A stretch of 64,000 nt of DNA from contig JAODBK010000014.1 of NCBI GenBank assembly GCA_025463925.1, forward strand, positions 62,001 to 126,000. Direction: 5' to 3'. The notes beneath the pieces were generated by a model. It was not told the origin of the DNA, did not search any database, and was given only the letters and a program-made list of their open reading frames with translations. The position numbers and the translations under genes are program-made. Of the stretch, positions 15,779 to 42,534 are shown piece by piece. The stretch is from Acidimicrobiales bacterium. GTDB lineage: Bacteria; Actinomycetota; Acidimicrobiia; Acidimicrobiales; AC-14. Position 1 is the first letter of the stretch, and each line of letters begins with the position of its first letter.

Positions 15779-16540
15779 ATGGGCATCACCAGCCACGTCG
15801 TCGACGGCATCGCCGAAGTCGTGATGGACAACCCGCCGGTGAACGCGTTGACGGTGGCCGGGTGGTTCGAGTTGGCCGACGTGATCCGCCGGGCCGGCGA
15901 CGACCAGGCGGTGCGGGCCGTGGTGCTCCGGGCCGAGGGCCGGGGGTTCAACGCCGGCGTCGACATCAAGGAGATGCAGGCGACCGAGGGCTTCACCGCG
16001 CTGGTCGGTGCCAATCGCGGCTGCTACGCAGCGTTCGCCGCGGTCTACGAGTGCGCGGTGCCGGTGATCGCCGCGGTCAACGGCTACTGCTTGGGCGGCG
16101 GCATCGGCCTGGTCGGCAACGCCGACATCATCGTCGCCGCCGACGACGCGACCTTCGGCCTGCCCGAGGTCGACCGGGGCGCGCTCGGCGCCGCGACCCA
16201 CCTGGCGCGGTTGGTCCCGCAGCACAAGATGCGGGCGATGGTGTTCACCGCGGAGTCGGCCACCGCGCAGGAGCTGCACCACTTCGGCTCGATCCATCAG
16301 GTCGTCCCGGTCGAGGAGTTGCGGGCCGCGGCGTTCGCGATCGCACGGAACATCGCGGCCAAGAGCGGCATCGTCATCCGGGCCGCCAAGGAGTCGCTGA
16401 ACGGCATCGATCCCGTCGACGTGAAGCGCTCCTACCGGTTCGAGCAGGGCTTCACCTTCGAGCTCAACCTCACCGGCGTCAGCGACGTCGCCCGCGACGC
16501 GTTCGTCGAGAAGCGGGAGGCCGACTTCGATGGCCGATAA
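15779..16540 (+). CDS. echA20: EchA20-like ring-opening hydrolase (crotonase fold)
   Basis: A 253-aa crotonase-fold protein very close to M. tuberculosis EchA20: LRAEGRGFNAGVDIKEMQ, TEGFTALVGANRGCYAAF, YECAVPVIAAVNGYCLGGGI, FGLPEVDRGALGAATHLARL and YRFEQGFTFELNL. EchA20 hydrolyses a HIP-derived diketo-CoA and opens ring D to give COCHEA-CoA. The first hydratase glutamate is absent (GGGIGL), as in EchA20, while the second (LPEV) is kept. It starts the operon echA20-ipdA-ipdB-ipdC-phosphotransferase, and its 3' end overlaps ipdA by 11 bp. Confidence 0.94.
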   Translation: MGITSHVVDGIAEVVMDNPPVNALTVAGWFELADVIRRAGDDQAVRAVVLRAEGRGFNAGVDIKEMQATEGFTALVGANRGCYAAFAAVYECAVPVIAAVNGYCLGGGIGLVGNADIIVAADDATFGLPEVDRGALGAATHLARLVPQHKMRAMVFTAESATAQELHHFGSIHQVVPVEELRAAAFAIARNIAAKSGIVIRAAKESLNGIDPVDVKRSYRFEQGFTFELNLTGVSDVARDAFVEKREADFDGR

Positions 16541-17384
16541 GCGCATGACCGCGGCCGAGGTGGTCGGCGAGCTGCGTGACGGCATGACCATCGGCGTCGG
16601 CGGGTGGGGAAGCCGGCGCAAGCCGATGGCCCTCGTGCGCGAGCTCCTCCGATCGCCGGTGCGCGACCTCACCGTCGTGTCGTACGGCGGACCCGACGTC
16701 GGCCTGCTGTGCGCCGCCGGCAAGGTCGCGAAGGTCGTCTTCGCGTTCGTGTCACTGGACTCGATCGCGCTCGAGCCGCACTTCCGCAACGCCAAGCAGG
16801 CCGGCGAGGTCGACACCCTCGAGCTGGACGAGGGCATGTTCCTGCTCGGCCTCCAAGCGGCGGCCTGGCGGGTGCCGTTCCTGCCGACGCGCGTGGGTCT
16901 CGGATCCGACGTGGTCGAGCGCCAGCCGGAGATCCGCATGGTCACCTCGCCGTACGACGACGGCGAAGAGCTCGCCGCCATGCCGGCGCTGAAGCTCGAC
17001 GTCGCCCTCATCCACCAGAACCGGGCCGACGCGTCCGGCAACGCCCAGTTCCTCGGGCCCGACCTCTACTTCGACGACCTCATGGTGCAAGCGGCCGATC
17101 GAGCGTTCGTCAGCTGCGAGCGCGTCGTCGACACCGCCGACCTGCTGAAGGAGGGGAGCCACCACACGTTGCGCATCAGCCGGTTGTGGATCGACGGCGT
17201 GGTCGAGACGCCCAACGGCGCTCACTTCACGTCGTGCGTGCCCGACTACGACCGCGACGAGGCGTTCCAGCGGGACTACGCCAAGGCCGCGGCGTCGCCG
17301 GAAACGTGGGCCGAGTTCAAGGCGGCGTGGCTCGACGTCAGCGAGGACGACTACCAGCGCAAGGTCGCGGGGCTGGGCCGGTGA
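16530..17384 (+). CDS. ipdA: IpdA-like COCHEA-CoA hydrolase, alpha subunit
   Basis: A 284-aa protein of the class I CoA-transferase fold. The opening GMTIGVGGWGSRRKPMALVR and the acidic ELDEG cluster (98-102) match IpdA; the essential glutamate of the IpdAB family is expected in this area. IpdAB uses water, not acetate, to cleave the last steroid ring in COCHEA-CoA. The ATG at 16530 has GGGAGG upstream and lies inside the end of echA20. The next subunit overlaps its stop by 4 bp (GTGA), as expected for a heteromeric enzyme. Confidence 0.94.
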   Translation: MADKRMTAAEVVGELRDGMTIGVGGWGSRRKPMALVRELLRSPVRDLTVVSYGGPDVGLLCAAGKVAKVVFAFVSLDSIALEPHFRNAKQAGEVDTLELDEGMFLLGLQAAAWRVPFLPTRVGLGSDVVERQPEIRMVTSPYDDGEELAAMPALKLDVALIHQNRADASGNAQFLGPDLYFDDLMVQAADRAFVSCERVVDTADLLKEGSHHTLRISRLWIDGVVETPNGAHFTSCVPDYDRDEAFQRDYAKAAASPETWAEFKAAWLDVSEDDYQRKVAGLGR

Positions 17385-18118
17385 GCGACGTGCGGCGAGC
17401 CGACATCTGCGCGGTTGCGATCGCCGAGTGCTTCCGCGGCGACGGCGAGATCATGGCCAACCCCATCGGCACGCTGCCGCGCGTCGGCGGCCTCCTCGCT
17501 CGCCTCTCCTTCGAGCCCGACCTGGTGATGACCGACGGCGAGGCGATGCTGGTCAACGCCGATGGCGTGGTGGAGGCGTGGAACCCGTACCGCACCATGT
17601 TCGACGTGGTGTGGTCGGGCCGGCGCCACGTGATGATGGGCGGCAGCCAGCTCGATCCGTTCGGCAACCACAACTTCGCCGGCATCGGCGACATGAAGCG
17701 GCCCAAGGCACAGCTCCTCGGCATGCGCGGCGCGCCCGGCAACACCGTCAACGACAAGACGTCGTACTGGATCCCGAATCACTCGCCGCGGGTCTTCGTG
17801 GAGAAGGTCGACGTCGTCAGCGGCGTCGGCTACGACCGCGCCCGGGCTGCCGGGCCGGCGGCCACGCGCTACCACCAGCTCCGCTTCGTCGTCACCAACC
17901 TGGGCGTGCTCGACTTCGAGTCACCCGACCACCGGATGCGGCTTCGATCGGTGCACCCGGGCGTGACGGTCGACGAGGTCGTCGAGGCCACGGGCTTCGA
18001 CCTGGCGCCGAACGGGGACGTGCCCGAGACGCGGCTGCCGACCAACGACGAGCTCCGCCTGCTCGACGACGTGGCCGACCCCGGCGGCGACCGGTTCACC
18101 GAGGTCAAGGACCAGTGA
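17381..18118 (+). CDS. ipdB: IpdB-like COCHEA-CoA hydrolase, beta subunit
   Basis: A 245-aa CoA-transferase-fold beta subunit: ADICAVAIAECFRGDGEIMA, NPIGTLPRVGGLLARLSFEP, VMMGGSQLDPFGNHN and RAPGNTVNDKTSYWIPNHSP, all characteristic of IpdB. With IpdA it forms the ring-cleaving hydrolase. The GTG start overlaps the ipdA stop. The next gene (ipdC) follows 10 bp after its stop. Confidence 0.94.
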   Translation: MSDVRRADICAVAIAECFRGDGEIMANPIGTLPRVGGLLARLSFEPDLVMTDGEAMLVNADGVVEAWNPYRTMFDVVWSGRRHVMMGGSQLDPFGNHNFAGIGDMKRPKAQLLGMRGAPGNTVNDKTSYWIPNHSPRVFVEKVDVVSGVGYDRARAAGPAATRYHQLRFVVTNLGVLDFESPDHRMRLRSVHPGVTVDEVVEATGFDLAPNGDVPETRLPTNDELRLLDDVADPGGDRFTEVKDQ

Positions 18119-18128
18119 TCCGGTAGCC

Positions 18129-19184
18129 ATGCACCCGGCGCTGCACACCCCGCTGGTCGACCTGGTCGGCGCCCGCGTCCCCATCGTGCAGACCGGGATG
18201 GGTTACGTCGCGTGGCCGAAGCTGGCCGCGGCCACGTCGAACGCCGGCGCCCTCGGGATCGTCGCGTCGGCGACGATGGACCTCGACGAGCTGCGCGCTG
18301 CCATCGGCCGGATGAAGGACCTCACCGACCGGCCGTTCGGCGTGAACCTGCGGTCCGACGCCGCCGACGCCGACGCCCGCGTCGACCTCCTCATCAAGGA
18401 GCGGGTCAAGGTCGCGAGCTTCGCGATGGCGCCCAAGGAATCGCTCATCAAGAGGCTGAAGGACGCCGGCCTCGTCGTGATCCCGTCGATCGGCGCCAAG
18501 CGGCACGCCGAGAAGGTGGCGGCGTGGGGAGTCGATGCCGTCATCGTGCAAGGCGCCGAGGGCGGGGGTCACACCGGTTCGGTGCCGACGACGTTGCTGC
18601 TCCCGCAGGTCGTCGACGCCGTCGACATCCCGGTGATCGCGGCGGGCGGGTTCTTCGACGGACGCGGCCTGGTCGCGGCGCTGGCGTACGGGGCGGCGGG
18701 CATCGCGATGGGCACGCGCTTCCTGCTGACGAGCGACAGCCCCGTCGGCGACGCCGTGAAGCAGCTCTACCTCGAGAAGACGGTGAACGACACCGTCGTC
18801 ACCACCCAGGTCGACGGTGTGCCTCACCGCGTGCTGCGCACCGAGCTGGTCGAGAAGCTCGAGAAGACGGGACCGGTGACGTCGTTGCCACGAGCCGTCG
18901 GCAACGCGTTCGCGTTCAAGAAGGTGTCGGGTACGCGGTGGCGCGACATCGTGAAGGAGGGGCTCGCCATGCGGCGGCAGCAGGAGCTGTCGTGGAGCCA
19001 GGTGGTGATGGCGGCGAACACCCCGATGTTGCTGAAGGCGGCGATGCAGGACGGGCGGCCCGACCTCGGCGTCATGGCCAGTGGCCAGGTCGTCGGGATG
19101 ATCGAGGACTTGCCCTCCTGCGCCGAGCTGATCGAACGGATCATGGCCGAGGCCGAGAAGGTCCTCGCCCGGTTTGGGGGGTAA
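18129..19184 (+). CDS. ipdC: IpdC-like flavin-dependent oxidoreductase
   Basis: A 351-aa nitronate-monooxygenase-type TIM barrel binding FMN: PIVQTGMGYVAWPKLAAATS near the start, GAEGGGHTGSVPT, PVIAAGGFFDGRGLVAALAYG (phosphate loop) and MGTRFLLTSDSP. The context (after ipdAB, with echA20 and ipdF nearby) and the sequence agree with IpdC, which acts on the hydroxy-HIC-CoA intermediate just before EchA20 in mycobacteria. A generic nitronate monooxygenase is the less likely alternative. Confidence 0.92.
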   Translation: MHPALHTPLVDLVGARVPIVQTGMGYVAWPKLAAATSNAGALGIVASATMDLDELRAAIGRMKDLTDRPFGVNLRSDAADADARVDLLIKERVKVASFAMAPKESLIKRLKDAGLVVIPSIGAKRHAEKVAAWGVDAVIVQGAEGGGHTGSVPTTLLLPQVVDAVDIPVIAAGGFFDGRGLVAALAYGAAGIAMGTRFLLTSDSPVGDAVKQLYLEKTVNDTVVTTQVDGVPHRVLRTELVEKLEKTGPVTSLPRAVGNAFAFKKVSGTRWRDIVKEGLAMRRQQELSWSQVVMAANTPMLLKAAMQDGRPDLGVMASGQVVGMIEDLPSCAELIERIMAEAEKVLARFGG

Positions 19185-37796: not shown

Positions 37797-38975
37797 GTGG
37801 AGTTCGGCATCTTCATCCAGGGATACGTGCCGGGGCCGAAGGCCCACGAGACCGAGGCCGAGCACGCCGCCCTGCTCCACGAGGCCGCGCTCGTCGAGTG
37901 TGCCGACCGCAACGGCTGGAAGTACGTCTGGGTCTCGGAGCATCACGCGCTGGCCGAGTACAGCCACATCTCGGCGAGCGACGTGTTCATGGGCTACCTG
38001 GCGCGCGCCACCGAGCGGATCCACCTCGGGTCCGGCATCTTCAACCTGAGCCCGCGGGTCAACCACCCGGTCCGCAACGCCGAGCGAGTCGCCATGCTCG
38101 ACCACCTGACCAACGGTCGATTCGAGTTCGGCACCGGCCGGGGCGCGGGGTCGCACGAGATCGCCACGTTCAACATCCACGACGCCAACTCGACGAAGAG
38201 TGAGTGGGACGAGGTGGTCCGCGAGATCCCGCGGATGTGGGCGCAGAAGGACTACACCTTCCAGGGCCAGCACTTCGCGATGGACACGCCCCACAACGTG
38301 CTCCCGAAGCCCTACCGCAAGGGCCACCCGGCGATCTGGGTGGCCTGTGGCAACCCGGCCACCTTCGGCAAGGCCGGCGCCCTCGGCATCGGCTCGCTGG
38401 GGTTCAACTTCTCGCCGATCCACGACATGAAGCCGCTGATCGACGCCTACAAGGAGGGCATCGCCGGTTGCGACGAACCGCTCGGCGAGTTCGTCAACGA
38501 CAACGTGATGATCACCAACGCCGTCGTGTGCATGGAGGACCGCGATCACGCGCGCGAGATCGTCACCCGCCACGGTCGCGGGTACCTGTACTCGCTGGTG
38601 TGCCTGTACCACGACACGTTCCCGAAGCCGGCCGGCGCGCCGACGTGGCCGGAGCCGCCGGTGGCGATGCCGGCCGACGCCATCGACTGGGCCATCGACG
38701 CGGGCTACCTCCTCTGCGGCACCCCGGACGAGGTGTGCGAGCAGATCGCGAAGGGCCACGCCAAGGTCGGCGTCGACCAGCTCGTCTTCGGCATGCCGAC
38801 CGACTCGGTGAGCCAGGACGAGGTGACGGAGTGCCTGGAGTCGTTCGGCAAGGGCGTGATCCCCGAGTTCGACAAGGACCCGGTGCACTCGACGACGCGC
38901 TACCGCGAGAACGCCAGGCCCAAGTTCCCGATGTTCAACAATCCGCCGCCGAAGATCGACACGATCATGTCGTAG
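37797..38975 (+). CDS. LLM-class flavin/F420-dependent oxidoreductase
   Basis: A 392-aa luciferase-fold protein: MEFGIFIQGYVPGPKAHETE, YVWVSEHHALAEYSHISASD, IHLGSGIFNLSPRVNHPVRN and LTNGRFEFGTGRGAGSHEIA. It shares the extended C-terminal arrangement of the LLM protein at 30688. GTG start with AAGGAGAGACACA. It is followed by a convergent MerB-fold gene and then another amidohydrolase. Confidence 0.85.
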   Translation: MEFGIFIQGYVPGPKAHETEAEHAALLHEAALVECADRNGWKYVWVSEHHALAEYSHISASDVFMGYLARATERIHLGSGIFNLSPRVNHPVRNAERVAMLDHLTNGRFEFGTGRGAGSHEIATFNIHDANSTKSEWDEVVREIPRMWAQKDYTFQGQHFAMDTPHNVLPKPYRKGHPAIWVACGNPATFGKAGALGIGSLGFNFSPIHDMKPLIDAYKEGIAGCDEPLGEFVNDNVMITNAVVCMEDRDHAREIVTRHGRGYLYSLVCLYHDTFPKPAGAPTWPEPPVAMPADAIDWAIDAGYLLCGTPDEVCEQIAKGHAKVGVDQLVFGMPTDSVSQDEVTECLESFGKGVIPEFDKDPVHSTTRYRENARPKFPMFNNPPPKIDTIMS

Positions 38976-38981
38976 TCGCCT

Positions 38982-39707
38982 TCATTCGCCGATGTCGGCC
39001 AGGTCGACGCCGAGCGCCTTGAGGCCCTTCACGATCTGACGCGGCGCCATCTGGCCGGGCGGCCAGTGGTAGTCGTACATCCGCTTGTCGCTGACGACCG
39101 ACACGAACAGCTTCGCCTGGTCGAAGGTGACGAGCACCCCGCGCCGGCCGACCTGGCGTTCGTAGCGCGCCGCGTGCTCAGCATCGATGGCGAAGTTCAT
39201 GGCGTCGCACATGAGCGTGATGTCGACGTTGTTCCAGTCCCACGGGCTGGCGGTGACATGGATCATCACGCCCTCCGGATTGCACGAGGTGATGTCGCCG
39301 TCCTTGGCGATCAGCGTGATCGGCGTGAAGCAGCACGCGCACCACGACTCGAGGCGGATCTCCTTGCCGGCGAACGGCGGCATCTTGCTGACCGCCATCG
39401 ATTCCATGGCGCACCCGATGAAGCTGTGGAACTGGCCATCGACGAACGCCTTCACCTGGCTCGGGAACGAGGAGAACGGCTGGAACTTGACGAGGTTGCA
39501 GTTCTGGGTGTCCTCCTGGACGACGCAGATGATCCCGAGCTGCAGCTCCTTGTACGCCTGGATGATCTCCCGGCGGCTGAGGGTCGTGGCCTGGTGGACG
39601 TCGAGCAGCGTCGGTCCGACGCCGTGCTCGCACCAGAACTCGTAGACGAATTGGCGGACCTGCAACGCATTCTCGGTCCACTCGAAGGCCGGCACGTTCT
39701 GAGGCAT
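38982..39707 (-). CDS. MerB-fold (alkylmercury lyase-like) protein
   Basis: A 241-aa protein that matches the organomercurial lyase layout. An N-terminal winged-helix region (VRQFVYEFWCEHGVGPTLLD, LSRREIIQAYKELQLG) precedes the lyase-like core: FHSFIGCAMESMAV, VMIHVTASPWDWNNVD and ITLMCDAMNFAIDAEHAARY. Cys in GCAME and in MCDAM occupy the places of MerB Cys96 and Cys159; the residue at the Asp99 place is Glu. No other mer gene is near, so a mercury role is doubtful. ATG at 39707 chosen; an in-frame ATG lies at 39716. It is divergent from an amidohydrolase with almost no gap. Confidence 0.75.
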   Translation of the reverse strand: MPQNVPAFEWTENALQVRQFVYEFWCEHGVGPTLLDVHQATTLSRREIIQAYKELQLGIICVVQEDTQNCNLVKFQPFSSFPSQVKAFVDGQFHSFIGCAMESMAVSKMPPFAGKEIRLESWCACCFTPITLIAKDGDITSCNPEGVMIHVTASPWDWNNVDITLMCDAMNFAIDAEHAARYERQVGRRGVLVTFDQAKLFVSVVSDKRMYDYHWPPGQMAPRQIVKGLKALGVDLADIGE

Positions 39708-39722: not shown

Positions 39723-40925
39723 ATGCGCGAGTTCCCCAAGATCATCTCGGTCGACGACCACGTCGTCGAGCCGGCCACCGTCTGGACGGATCGGCTGCCC
39801 GCCAAGTACCGGGATGTGGGGCCCCGCATCGTCCGGGCGCCGGTCGGCGACATCGAGTTCGTCGGCGGCAAGTTCACGCCGACGATCGGCGCCGAGGGCC
39901 AGGGTCTCCCGGTCGCCGACTGGTGGTTCTACGAGGATCTCCGCCGGCCCCTGCTCCGGCTCGACGCCGCCGCCGGGTACCCCCGCGACGAGATCGACCT
40001 GCGGGCGGTCACCTACCAGGACATGCGCCCGGGCGCCTGGCAGGTCGGGCCGCGGCTGGCCGACATGGACGAGAACTGGATCGAGGCTTCACTCTGCTTC
40101 CCGACGTTCCCGCGCTTCTGCGGCCAGACGTTCACCGAGGCCAGCGACAAGGAGCTCGCGCTGCTCTGCGTCAAGGCCTACAACGACTGGATGGTCGACG
40201 AATGGTGCGAGCCGTCGAACGGCCGCCTCATCCCGCTGACCCTGATCCCGCTCTGGGATGCGGAGCTGGCGGCGGCCGAAGTGCGGCGCAACTCCGAGCG
40301 CGGCGTGCGCGCGGTGTGCTTCAGCGAGATCCCGCCGTTCCTCGGCCTGCCGTCGATCCACGACGAGCGCAACTACTGGGACCCGTTCTTCGCAGCGTGT
40401 GAAGCGGGCAACGTCGTCATCAACATGCACATCGGGTCGAGCTCGAAGATGCCGTCGACGTCGGTCGATGCGCCGCCGGCGGTCGGCTCGACGCTGACAT
40501 TCGCCAACGCCTGCTACAGCCTCGTCGACTGGTTGATGTCCGGCGTGTTCACCCGCTTCCCCGAGCTCACCATCGCGTACAGCGAGGGCCAGATCGGGTG
40601 GATCCCGTACGTGCTCGAGCGGGCCGACGTGGTGTGGCGCGAGAACCGCGGATGGGGCGGCGTGGCCGACAAGGTGCTCGAGCCGCCCAGCGAGCTGTTC
40701 CGCAAGCACGTGTACGGCTGCTTCTTCGACGACGCCCACGGGCTCCGGTCGGTCGACGACATCGGTGCCGACCGGATCACCTACGAGAGCGACTACCCGC
40801 ACTCCGATTCGACGTGGCCCAACACCCGTCAGATCGCGGAAGAGCAGATGAAGGGCCTGGACGACGCCGTGATCGAGATGATCGTGCGCGGCAACGCCAT
40901 CAAGATGCTGGGCCTCGACCGGTAG
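39723..40925 (+). CDS. Amidohydrolase-2 family protein (paralogue of 29301-30494)
   Basis: A 400-aa ACMSD-like TIM-barrel metal enzyme: PKIISVDDHVVEPATVWTDR, CFPTFPRFCGQTFTEASDKE, MHIGSSSKMPSTSVDAPPAV, YSEGQIGWIPYVLERADVVW and YESDYPHSDSTWPNTRQIAE. The same blocks recur in the paralogue, so the two probably act on related compounds. It precedes fadD3 by 34 bp on the same strand. Confidence 0.86.
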   Translation: MREFPKIISVDDHVVEPATVWTDRLPAKYRDVGPRIVRAPVGDIEFVGGKFTPTIGAEGQGLPVADWWFYEDLRRPLLRLDAAAGYPRDEIDLRAVTYQDMRPGAWQVGPRLADMDENWIEASLCFPTFPRFCGQTFTEASDKELALLCVKAYNDWMVDEWCEPSNGRLIPLTLIPLWDAELAAAEVRRNSERGVRAVCFSEIPPFLGLPSIHDERNYWDPFFAACEAGNVVINMHIGSSSKMPSTSVDAPPAVGSTLTFANACYSLVDWLMSGVFTRFPELTIAYSEGQIGWIPYVLERADVVWRENRGWGGVADKVLEPPSELFRKHVYGCFFDDAHGLRSVDDIGADRITYESDYPHSDSTWPNTRQIAEEQMKGLDDAVIEMIVRGNAIKMLGLDR

Positions 40926-40959: not shown

Positions 40960-42534
40960 GTGAACGAGCGGAGCATTCCGGAATTGGTGACCGCGGCGGC
41001 CGAGCGGTTCCCGACGCGGGAAGCGTTGGTCGACGGCGACGTCCGGCTGACGTACCCGCAGCTCAGGGACGAGGTCCGACGGGCGACGCGCGCCGCGATC
41101 GCGTCGGGCATCGAGCCGGGTGACCGGGTGGCGATCTGGGCGCCCAACATCTGGGAGTGGATCGTCGCCGCGCTGGGCGCGCTGTCCGCCGGGGCCGTCC
41201 TCGTCCCGGTGAACACCCGGTTCAAGGGCAGCGAGGCCGCCTTCATCCTCGACAAGAGCGGGGCCAGCGTCCTCTTCACGGTGAACGGCTTCCTCGACAC
41301 GGATTACGTCGCCATGCTGCGGGGGTCGGGCGCGCCGCTGGCGGCGTTGCGGACGATCGTCGTGCTGCGGGGCGACGCACCAACCGACACGGTCTCGTTC
41401 GCCGACTGGCTCGATGCCGGCGAGTCGGTCGACCCGGCCGAGGCCGACCGGCGGGCCGCCGCGGTCGGGCCCGACGACCTCTCCGACATCATCTTCACGT
41501 CGGGCACCACCGGGATGCCGAAGGGCGCGATGGTCACGCACGGCCAGAGCCTCAAGGTGTACGAGGCCTGGACCGACGTCACCGGGCTCGCCGAAGGCGA
41601 CCGCTACCTCATCGTCATGCCGTTCTTCCACACCTTCGGCTACAAGGCCGGATGGATGGCGGCGCTCATGCGGGGCGCGACGATCGTGCCGCAGGCGGTG
41701 TTCGACGTCGACGAGGTGCTGCGCCAGGTCGCCAACGAGAAGATCACGATGCTCCCCGGGGCGCCGACGCTGTACCAGTCGATCCTCGAGCACCCCAAGC
41801 GCGACGAGTACGACCTGTCGTCACTGCGGCTGGCCGTCACCGGCGCCGCCGCGGTGCCGGTCGAGCTGATCCGGCGCATGCGCGACGAGCTGACCTTCCG
41901 CACGATCATCACCGGGTACGGCCTCACCGAGTCCACCGGCACCGCGGCGATGTGCCGGCACGACGACGACCCGGAGACCATCGCGAACTTCTCCGGGCGG
42001 GCGATCCCCGACACCGAGGTGCTGGTCGTCGACGACGACGGCCACGAGGTGCCGCGGGGGGATCCGGGCGAGGTGGTCGTGCGGGGGTACAACGTCATGC
42101 TCGGCTACTACGACGAGCCCGAGGAGACCGCGACGGCGATCGACGCCGACGGCTGGCTCCACACCGGCGACGTCGGTGTCATGGACGAGCGCGGATACGT
42201 CCGCATCACCGACCGCAAGAAGGACATGTACATCGTCGGTGGGTTCAACGCCTATCCCGCGGAGATCGAGGGGATCCTCCTGCGACACCCGGCGATCGCG
42301 CAGGTCGCGGTCGTCGGCGTGCCCGACGACCGGATGGGCGAGGTCGGCGTGGCGTTCGTGGTGCCGCGGTCGTCCGCGACGGTCGACGCCGACGAGCTGG
42401 TCGCATGGGCGCGTGAGCAGATGGCCAACTACAAGGTGCCTCGCAGGGTCGTCGTCGTGGACGCGCTGCCACTGAACGCCAGCGGCAAGGTGCTGAAGTA
42501 CGAGCTGCGCGAGCGGGCCGCCGCCGGGCGTTAG
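40960..42534 (+). CDS. fadD3: FadD3-like HIP-CoA synthetase
   Basis: A 524-aa AMP-forming acyl-CoA ligase. The P-loop FTSGTTGMPKGAM and the FadD3-like blocks MPFFHTFGYKAGWMAALMRG, PGAPTLYQSILEHPKRDEYD, SLRLAVTGAAAVPVELIRRM and GYGLTESTGTAAMC are present, as are the hinge GDVGVMDERGYVRITDRKKD and the C-terminal Lys (LNASGKVLKYELRE). FadD3 activates HIP, the C/D-ring remnant, before the FadE30/Ipd/FadA6 steps encoded at 12.6-24 kb. GTG start. The 3' end overlaps the convergent LLM gene by 4 bp. Confidence 0.85.
   Translation: MNERSIPELVTAAAERFPTREALVDGDVRLTYPQLRDEVRRATRAAIASGIEPGDRVAIWAPNIWEWIVAALGALSAGAVLVPVNTRFKGSEAAFILDKSGASVLFTVNGFLDTDYVAMLRGSGAPLAALRTIVVLRGDAPTDTVSFADWLDAGESVDPAEADRRAAAVGPDDLSDIIFTSGTTGMPKGAMVTHGQSLKVYEAWTDVTGLAEGDRYLIVMPFFHTFGYKAGWMAALMRGATIVPQAVFDVDEVLRQVANEKITMLPGAPTLYQSILEHPKRDEYDLSSLRLAVTGAAAVPVELIRRMRDELTFRTIITGYGLTESTGTAAMCRHDDDPETIANFSGRAIPDTEVLVVDDDGHEVPRGDPGEVVVRGYNVMLGYYDEPEETATAIDADGWLHTGDVGVMDERGYVRITDRKKDMYIVGGFNAYPAEIEGILLRHPAIAQVAVVGVPDDRMGEVGVAFVVPRSSATVDADELVAWAREQMANYKVPRRVVVVDALPLNASGKVLKYELRERAAAGR

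Follow-up and report, generated by a model that had tools for sequence, protein, structure and literature searches.

The window, by which we mean the whole 64,000-nucleotide stretch analysed, carries a gene whose product is best labelled a 99-Glu variant within the MerB superfamily, with glutamate in place of the proton-relaying aspartate (Asp99) of MerB. We put at roughly even odds (probability ~0.5) the reading that this protein is a MerB-type lyase, or a chemically close relative: a stand-alone enzyme that belongs to a 99-Glu clade and, in a catabolic context, acts on a soft-metal adduct. That reading builds on homology, on fold, on the invariance of three residues, on a conserved neighbourhood, and on the selenocysteine (Sec) that sister families carry at the positions of the two putative active-site cysteines.

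The gene lies on the minus strand at 38982..39707, with its ATG at 39707 and its stop codon at 38982–38984, and comprises 241 codons plus the stop (protein P0001, MPQNVPAFEW...DIGE); the choice of start is backed by an N-terminal MPQ.VP that is conserved among relatives. A scan for promoters and terminators found nothing. The sequence-only reading had assigned the product a MerB fold, and the alkylmercury lyase profile bears this out: the Pfam MerB family PF03243 matches residues 94–198 at 1.1e-11 with 45.2 bits, against a curated gathering cut-off of 27, and no other gene of the window genome gives a MerB-type match. An AlphaFold2 model built from a 47-sequence alignment reached a pLDDT of 91.6 and a pTM of 0.88. 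When this model was compared with the PDB using Foldseek, all 11 matches below 1e-3 were MerB structures, the best being 5c17 (MerB2; 1.2e-9, TM 0.64/0.73); the family profile likewise matched MerB2 at 3.5e-7. Identity to true MerB across the PDB fold matches is ~12–17%. No better match to an unrelated family emerged, the first non-MerB fold match having an E value of 0.21, and the Pfam score, together with the fold search and the invariant catalytic residues, rules out a chance resemblance to MerB.

In MerB, Cys96 and Cys159 bind mercury and Asp99 relays a proton to the leaving carbon (PMC4525700). Alignment by hhalign of the family profile with canonical plasmid MerB (three plasmid MerB proteins) pairs C99 with C96, E102 with D99, C123 with C117, and C167 with C159, confirming the earlier view that both cysteines are kept (Cys99 codon at 39411..39413 and Cys167 codon at 39207..39209, minus strand). 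C99, E102, C167, and D168 are invariant across 47 aligned relatives from Acidimicrobiia, Deltaproteobacteria, and Chloroflexi MAGs; with 16 invariant columns among 241, the three chosen residues would all fall among them by chance with a probability of ~2e-4. The replacement of Asp by Glu, also noted earlier, stands insofar as Glu102 (GAA, 39402..39404, minus strand) pairs with Asp99, but it is a fixed signature of the whole clade rather than an oddity, and a one-off mutation is ruled out by its invariance in the 47 relatives. Judged from the sequence, all the parts for a MerB proton relay are present, with Glu replacing Asp. The C123-x-C125-C126 motif (39330..39341, minus strand) begins at the residue equivalent to MerB Cys117; C123, C125, C126, and H150 are all present in 33 sequences and jointly replaced (by D, H, T, and L) in the 14 members of one clade. 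This joint retention or loss of CxCC and His150 would be in keeping with a secondary metal site. Elsewhere among MerB-like proteins, L076 and L077 carry Cys at the Asp99 position (CAWCSLG).

Nine family genes, namely that of the window and eight others at 47–69% identity, came from 7 of 60 related genomes, two further genomes of the 60 holding distant relatives only. A search across 84,980 species genomes returned 50 loci; most are in Acidimicrobiia MAGs, a few in MAGs labelled Deltaproteobacteria, and one in a Chloroflexi MAG. Among 396 genomes drawn across the phylum, the sole full match was in the window's own genome, and this rarity marks the gene as patchy and accessory. A plasmid-borne gene is ruled out, since 72,556 plasmids contained nothing similar except one weak match to an ordinary MerB. 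In a tree of 98 MerB-like proteins, the window family forms one clade (support 100/100) on a very long stem (2.12 changes per column) and groups with the selenocysteine-type MerB-like proteins of the class; a 99/95 branch parts this half of the tree from the half holding plasmid MerB. Given the long stem and the low identity to MerB, function may have shifted. Three MAGs titled Bifidobacterium breve (L041, L043, and L045) have Acidimicrobiia-type MerB-like genes, and these record names look wrong.

The selenocysteine-type sister families provide an opportunity to judge which residues are likely to be reactive. When 345 genomes of the class were searched with Pfam, 74 proved to hold MerB-like genes, and 75 such genes were extracted from these genomes together with three earlier matches. 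An in-frame UGA occurs in 42 of the 75, mainly from the class, and eight of the 42 have two. In window numbering, the aligned UGAs fall exclusively in column 167 (41 rows, two of the 42 genes sharing one name) or column 99 (8 rows), the equivalents of MerB Cys159 and Cys96. A SECIS hairpin with a GGUC loop lies 3′ of the column-167 UGA at an identical offset in 42/42 genes; 277 of 294 stem cells are paired, compared to 166 of 294 when the stem is slid by one base, and several pairs are altered on both sides. SelB scored over its cut-off in all nine genomes tested, and tRNA-Sec did so in nine of ten other genomes, including the window genome at 68 bits. The fixed positions and the SECIS elements rule out sequencing error as the origin of these UGAs, and the genes, nearly all from Acidimicrobiia, are apparently a widespread selenoprotein family. 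UGA at the Cys159 position with a GGUC-loop SECIS was recorded at L084, L086, L087, L089–L091, L093, L095, L103, L113–L116, L118, L119, L121–L131, L134, L138, L139, L142, L019, L020, and L074.

Among rows outside the 47-member alignment, the residues at 99/102/167 are C/D/U in 27, C/D/C in 23, C/E/C in 7 (further members of the window family), C/E/U in 6, U/E/U in 6, C/C/C in 2, and U/D/U in 2. Because Cys and Sec are exchanged at exactly the two metal-binding positions of MerB, both C99 and C167 are probably reactive in the window family as well, and reactive thiols favour soft-metal or organometal chemistry. This exchange gives strong, though indirect, evidence for their reactivity and is the best available pointer to the mechanism. 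The Sec families are the nearest clades to the window family in the tree, and one subset shares its Glu at column 102. They differ from the window gene in having Sec at 167, and sometimes at 99, and in generally not lying beside genes for luciferase-like (LLM) monooxygenases or PF04909 proteins; an LLM setting common to the Sec families is ruled out, as LLM adjoins in only three of the loci viewed.

The window gene itself is convergent with an LLM monooxygenase gene (37797..38975, plus strand) and divergent from a DitZ/PtmU3-like PF04909 gene (39723..40925, plus strand), with 15 bp between the two start codons. Together with the latter gene, a FadD3-family acyl-CoA ligase (40960..42534, plus strand; 781 bits against a cut-off of 657) and an IpdA-like CoA-transferase alpha subunit (16530..17384, plus strand; PDB 6co6 at 5e-99) place the window in steroid/terpenoid catabolism, in agreement with the steroid/LLM cluster proposed earlier. 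The IpdA-like gene stands in a row with an enoyl-CoA hydratase gene and probable IpdB- and IpdC-like genes (15779–19184), a block for steroid C/D-ring degradation. The sequence-only reading had also placed the MerB-like gene among LLM and amidohydrolase genes; the setting holds, but the 'amidohydrolase' is closest to DitZ (8uyr, 1.9e-60) and then to PtmU3 (6omp, 7.6e-39), and its DxH, H, E, and DxxH motifs, named as metal ligands for LynB7/PtmU3 (PMC10127204), align with those of DitZ/PtmU3. PtmU3 is a non-heme diiron monooxygenase whose substrate is a diterpenoid-CoA (PMC10127204).

This setting recurs beyond the window. LLM or PF04909 genes account for 15 of 47 direct neighbours compared to 18 of 264 more distant genes (odds ratio 6.4, p=8e-6, a guide only, as the 24 loci were thinned at 80% identity, called with a home-made gene caller, and include the window). 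SDR and acyl-CoA dehydrogenase neighbours showed no enrichment in the same 24 loci. L013/L023 and L014 also have a divergent PF04909 gene, and the LLM gene found there is a different one, located 3′ of the MerB-like gene on the same strand and only 3 bp downstream in L013; in L018, the PF04909 gene overlaps by 4 bp. LLM genes related to that of the window adjoin the MerB-like gene in L029 and lie two genes off in L037. Operon partners vary from clade to clade, and the L018 clade has a PF04909 gene of a different, more distant type. The clade without CxCC/His150 (L055–L067 and L069) has a fixed, non-LLM neighbourhood, flanked by genes for a sulfotransferase and malate synthase/isocitrate lyase.

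Comparison with known MerB systems shows where the window protein departs from them. It shares with MerB (plasmid R831b type, PDB 3f0o and 1s6l; MerB2, 5c17) the fold, the two metal-binding cysteines, an acidic residue three positions after the first of these, and, in most family members, a cysteine at the buried Cys117 position (C123). It differs in its Glu, its separate clade and long stem, the additional C125–C126 and H150, its low identity, and the lack of a mer operon, a MerA partner, and a plasmid location. The NCBIfam MerB cut-offs are far from reached (19.8 against 200 bits and 17.9 against 193 bits). The absence of merA nearby, as noted from the sequence, extends to the whole window genome, where the best candidate for MerA scores 302 bits against a cut-off of 454, and to the ten genomes checked, none of which has a MerA over cut-off; no mer genes adjoin the window gene, so that a misplaced mer operon gene is ruled out. 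A search for MerT gave no match, and its control search was equally silent. A 2021 survey defines MerB by Cys96, Asp99, Cys117, and Cys159 (PMC8261052), and the window protein, with Glu102, falls outside MerB because that definition requires Asp99. The variants named there are 99Ser and 117alt only; these resemble the window protein in having an altered signature position, often without MerA, whereas a 99-Glu class is unnamed in that survey (PMC8261052). Selenoprotein MerB-like proteins have been reviewed as SaoL-type (PMC9312934, PMC13188914), SaoL being the organometallic lyase of a Sec-assisted organometal system. SaoL is likewise MerB-like and outside mer operons, and its model NF040728 is the best-scoring NCBIfam model for the window protein; however, the score of 26 bits lies well below the equivalog cut-off of 140, no Sao neighbours were seen, and the CU (Cys-Sec) motif of SaoL (PMC13188914) is missing from the window gene, which reads MCDxMNF and has no UGA.

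In the mechanism that we favour, the thiolates of Cys99 and Cys167 would hold a soft metal or, in an organic substrate, its metal/heteroatom end, and Glu102 would accept a proton from one thiol and transfer it to the leaving carbon, the part that Asp99 plays in the MerB relay (PMC4525700). The most likely substrate of the putative enzyme would be an organometal(loid) or another soft-metal adduct encountered in steroid/terpenoid catabolism, handled beside the flavin (LLM) and DitZ/PtmU3-type oxygenases and outside mercury resistance. Of the roles originally offered for the protein (carbon–metal, carbon–sulfur, or purely regulatory chemistry), which are not fully separable, the conserved Cys/Glu/Cys and the Sec of sister families make metal-type chemistry with reactive thiols more likely than regulation alone. 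Against the favoured mechanism, no metal transporter, regulator, or MerA partner lies near the window gene, and a lyase that frees a soft metal without such a partner is awkward.

The leading alternative is that the MerB fold was recruited to organic catabolism, with Cys/Glu/Cys acting on a steroid or terpenoid thioester, thioether, disulfide, or carbonyl intermediate produced by the LLM and DitZ/PtmU3-type enzymes, and with no metal–carbon bond involved. The adjacency to LLM/PF04909 genes across clades and phyla, the tight spacing in L013 and L018, the steroid-type surroundings, and the long stem branch are all consistent with such a role, which we regard as a possibility of some weight, though probably not the answer. 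Against it, the metal-binding pair is fully retained, sister families outside such operons carry Sec at these positions, a sign of soft-metal or redox chemistry, and our literature search found no MerB homologue with such a role and nothing relevant on MerB in biosynthetic clusters.

It appears unlikely that the protein is a true organomercurial lyase of broad range, using Glu for Asp and conferring methylmercury resistance without MerA. Although the fold and catalytic positions are kept, Glu is a chemically conservative replacement, and MerB without MerA is common among genomes (PMC8261052), this explanation sits poorly with the low NCBIfam MerB scores, the position of the family outside the canonical clade, the lack of MerA over cut-off in the ten genomes, and the near-complete absence from plasmids. 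Even less probable is a non-catalytic metal/thiol sensor or chaperone, whose winged-helix-like N-terminal half and Cys site would regulate the divergent gene. The closely spaced divergent start codons, the same gene order in L013 and L014, and the metal-site-like behaviour of CxCC and His would fit a sensor; however, the divergent arrangement is not general among loci, the fold search returns MerB over almost the whole length, with no regulator scoring below 0.2, and an invariant Glu102 would be needless for a sensor.

MerB chemistry has so far been tied to mercury resistance and, by prediction, to the clostridial SAO system. The conservation of a 99-Glu clade away from mer operons, together with the Cys/Sec exchange of sister families, suggests a wider natural role for MerB-type carbon–metal or derived chemistry. 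These proteins could be used to test if Glu is able to shuttle the proton in place of Asp, and to ask what kind of substrate calls for a selenol. More speculatively, and with considerable doubt on our part, Acidimicrobiia and a few other lineages may hold a branch of the MerB superfamily, so far undescribed, whose metal-binding pair is C/C, C/U, or U/U and whose shuttle is Asp or Glu, with the window gene representing an all-Cys Glu branch tied to steroid/terpenoid oxygenases; the members of the whole branch would together handle an organometal(loid) pool of natural origin, apart from mercury resistance. A limited literature check, resting on two reviews for the Sec variants, found no report of the Acidimicrobiia Sec families or of double-Sec forms. 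The double-UGA genes (L132, L133, L135, L136, L137, L140, L141, and L143) have their UGAs at the Cys96 and Cys159 equivalents, and in 7/8 a CGUGC-loop hairpin lies 3′ of the first UGA. By their sequence alone, the double-UGA MerB-like domain appears to be joined to a C-terminal nucleotide-cyclase-like domain in L135–L137 and to an ATPase-like domain with GSGKT in L132 and L143.
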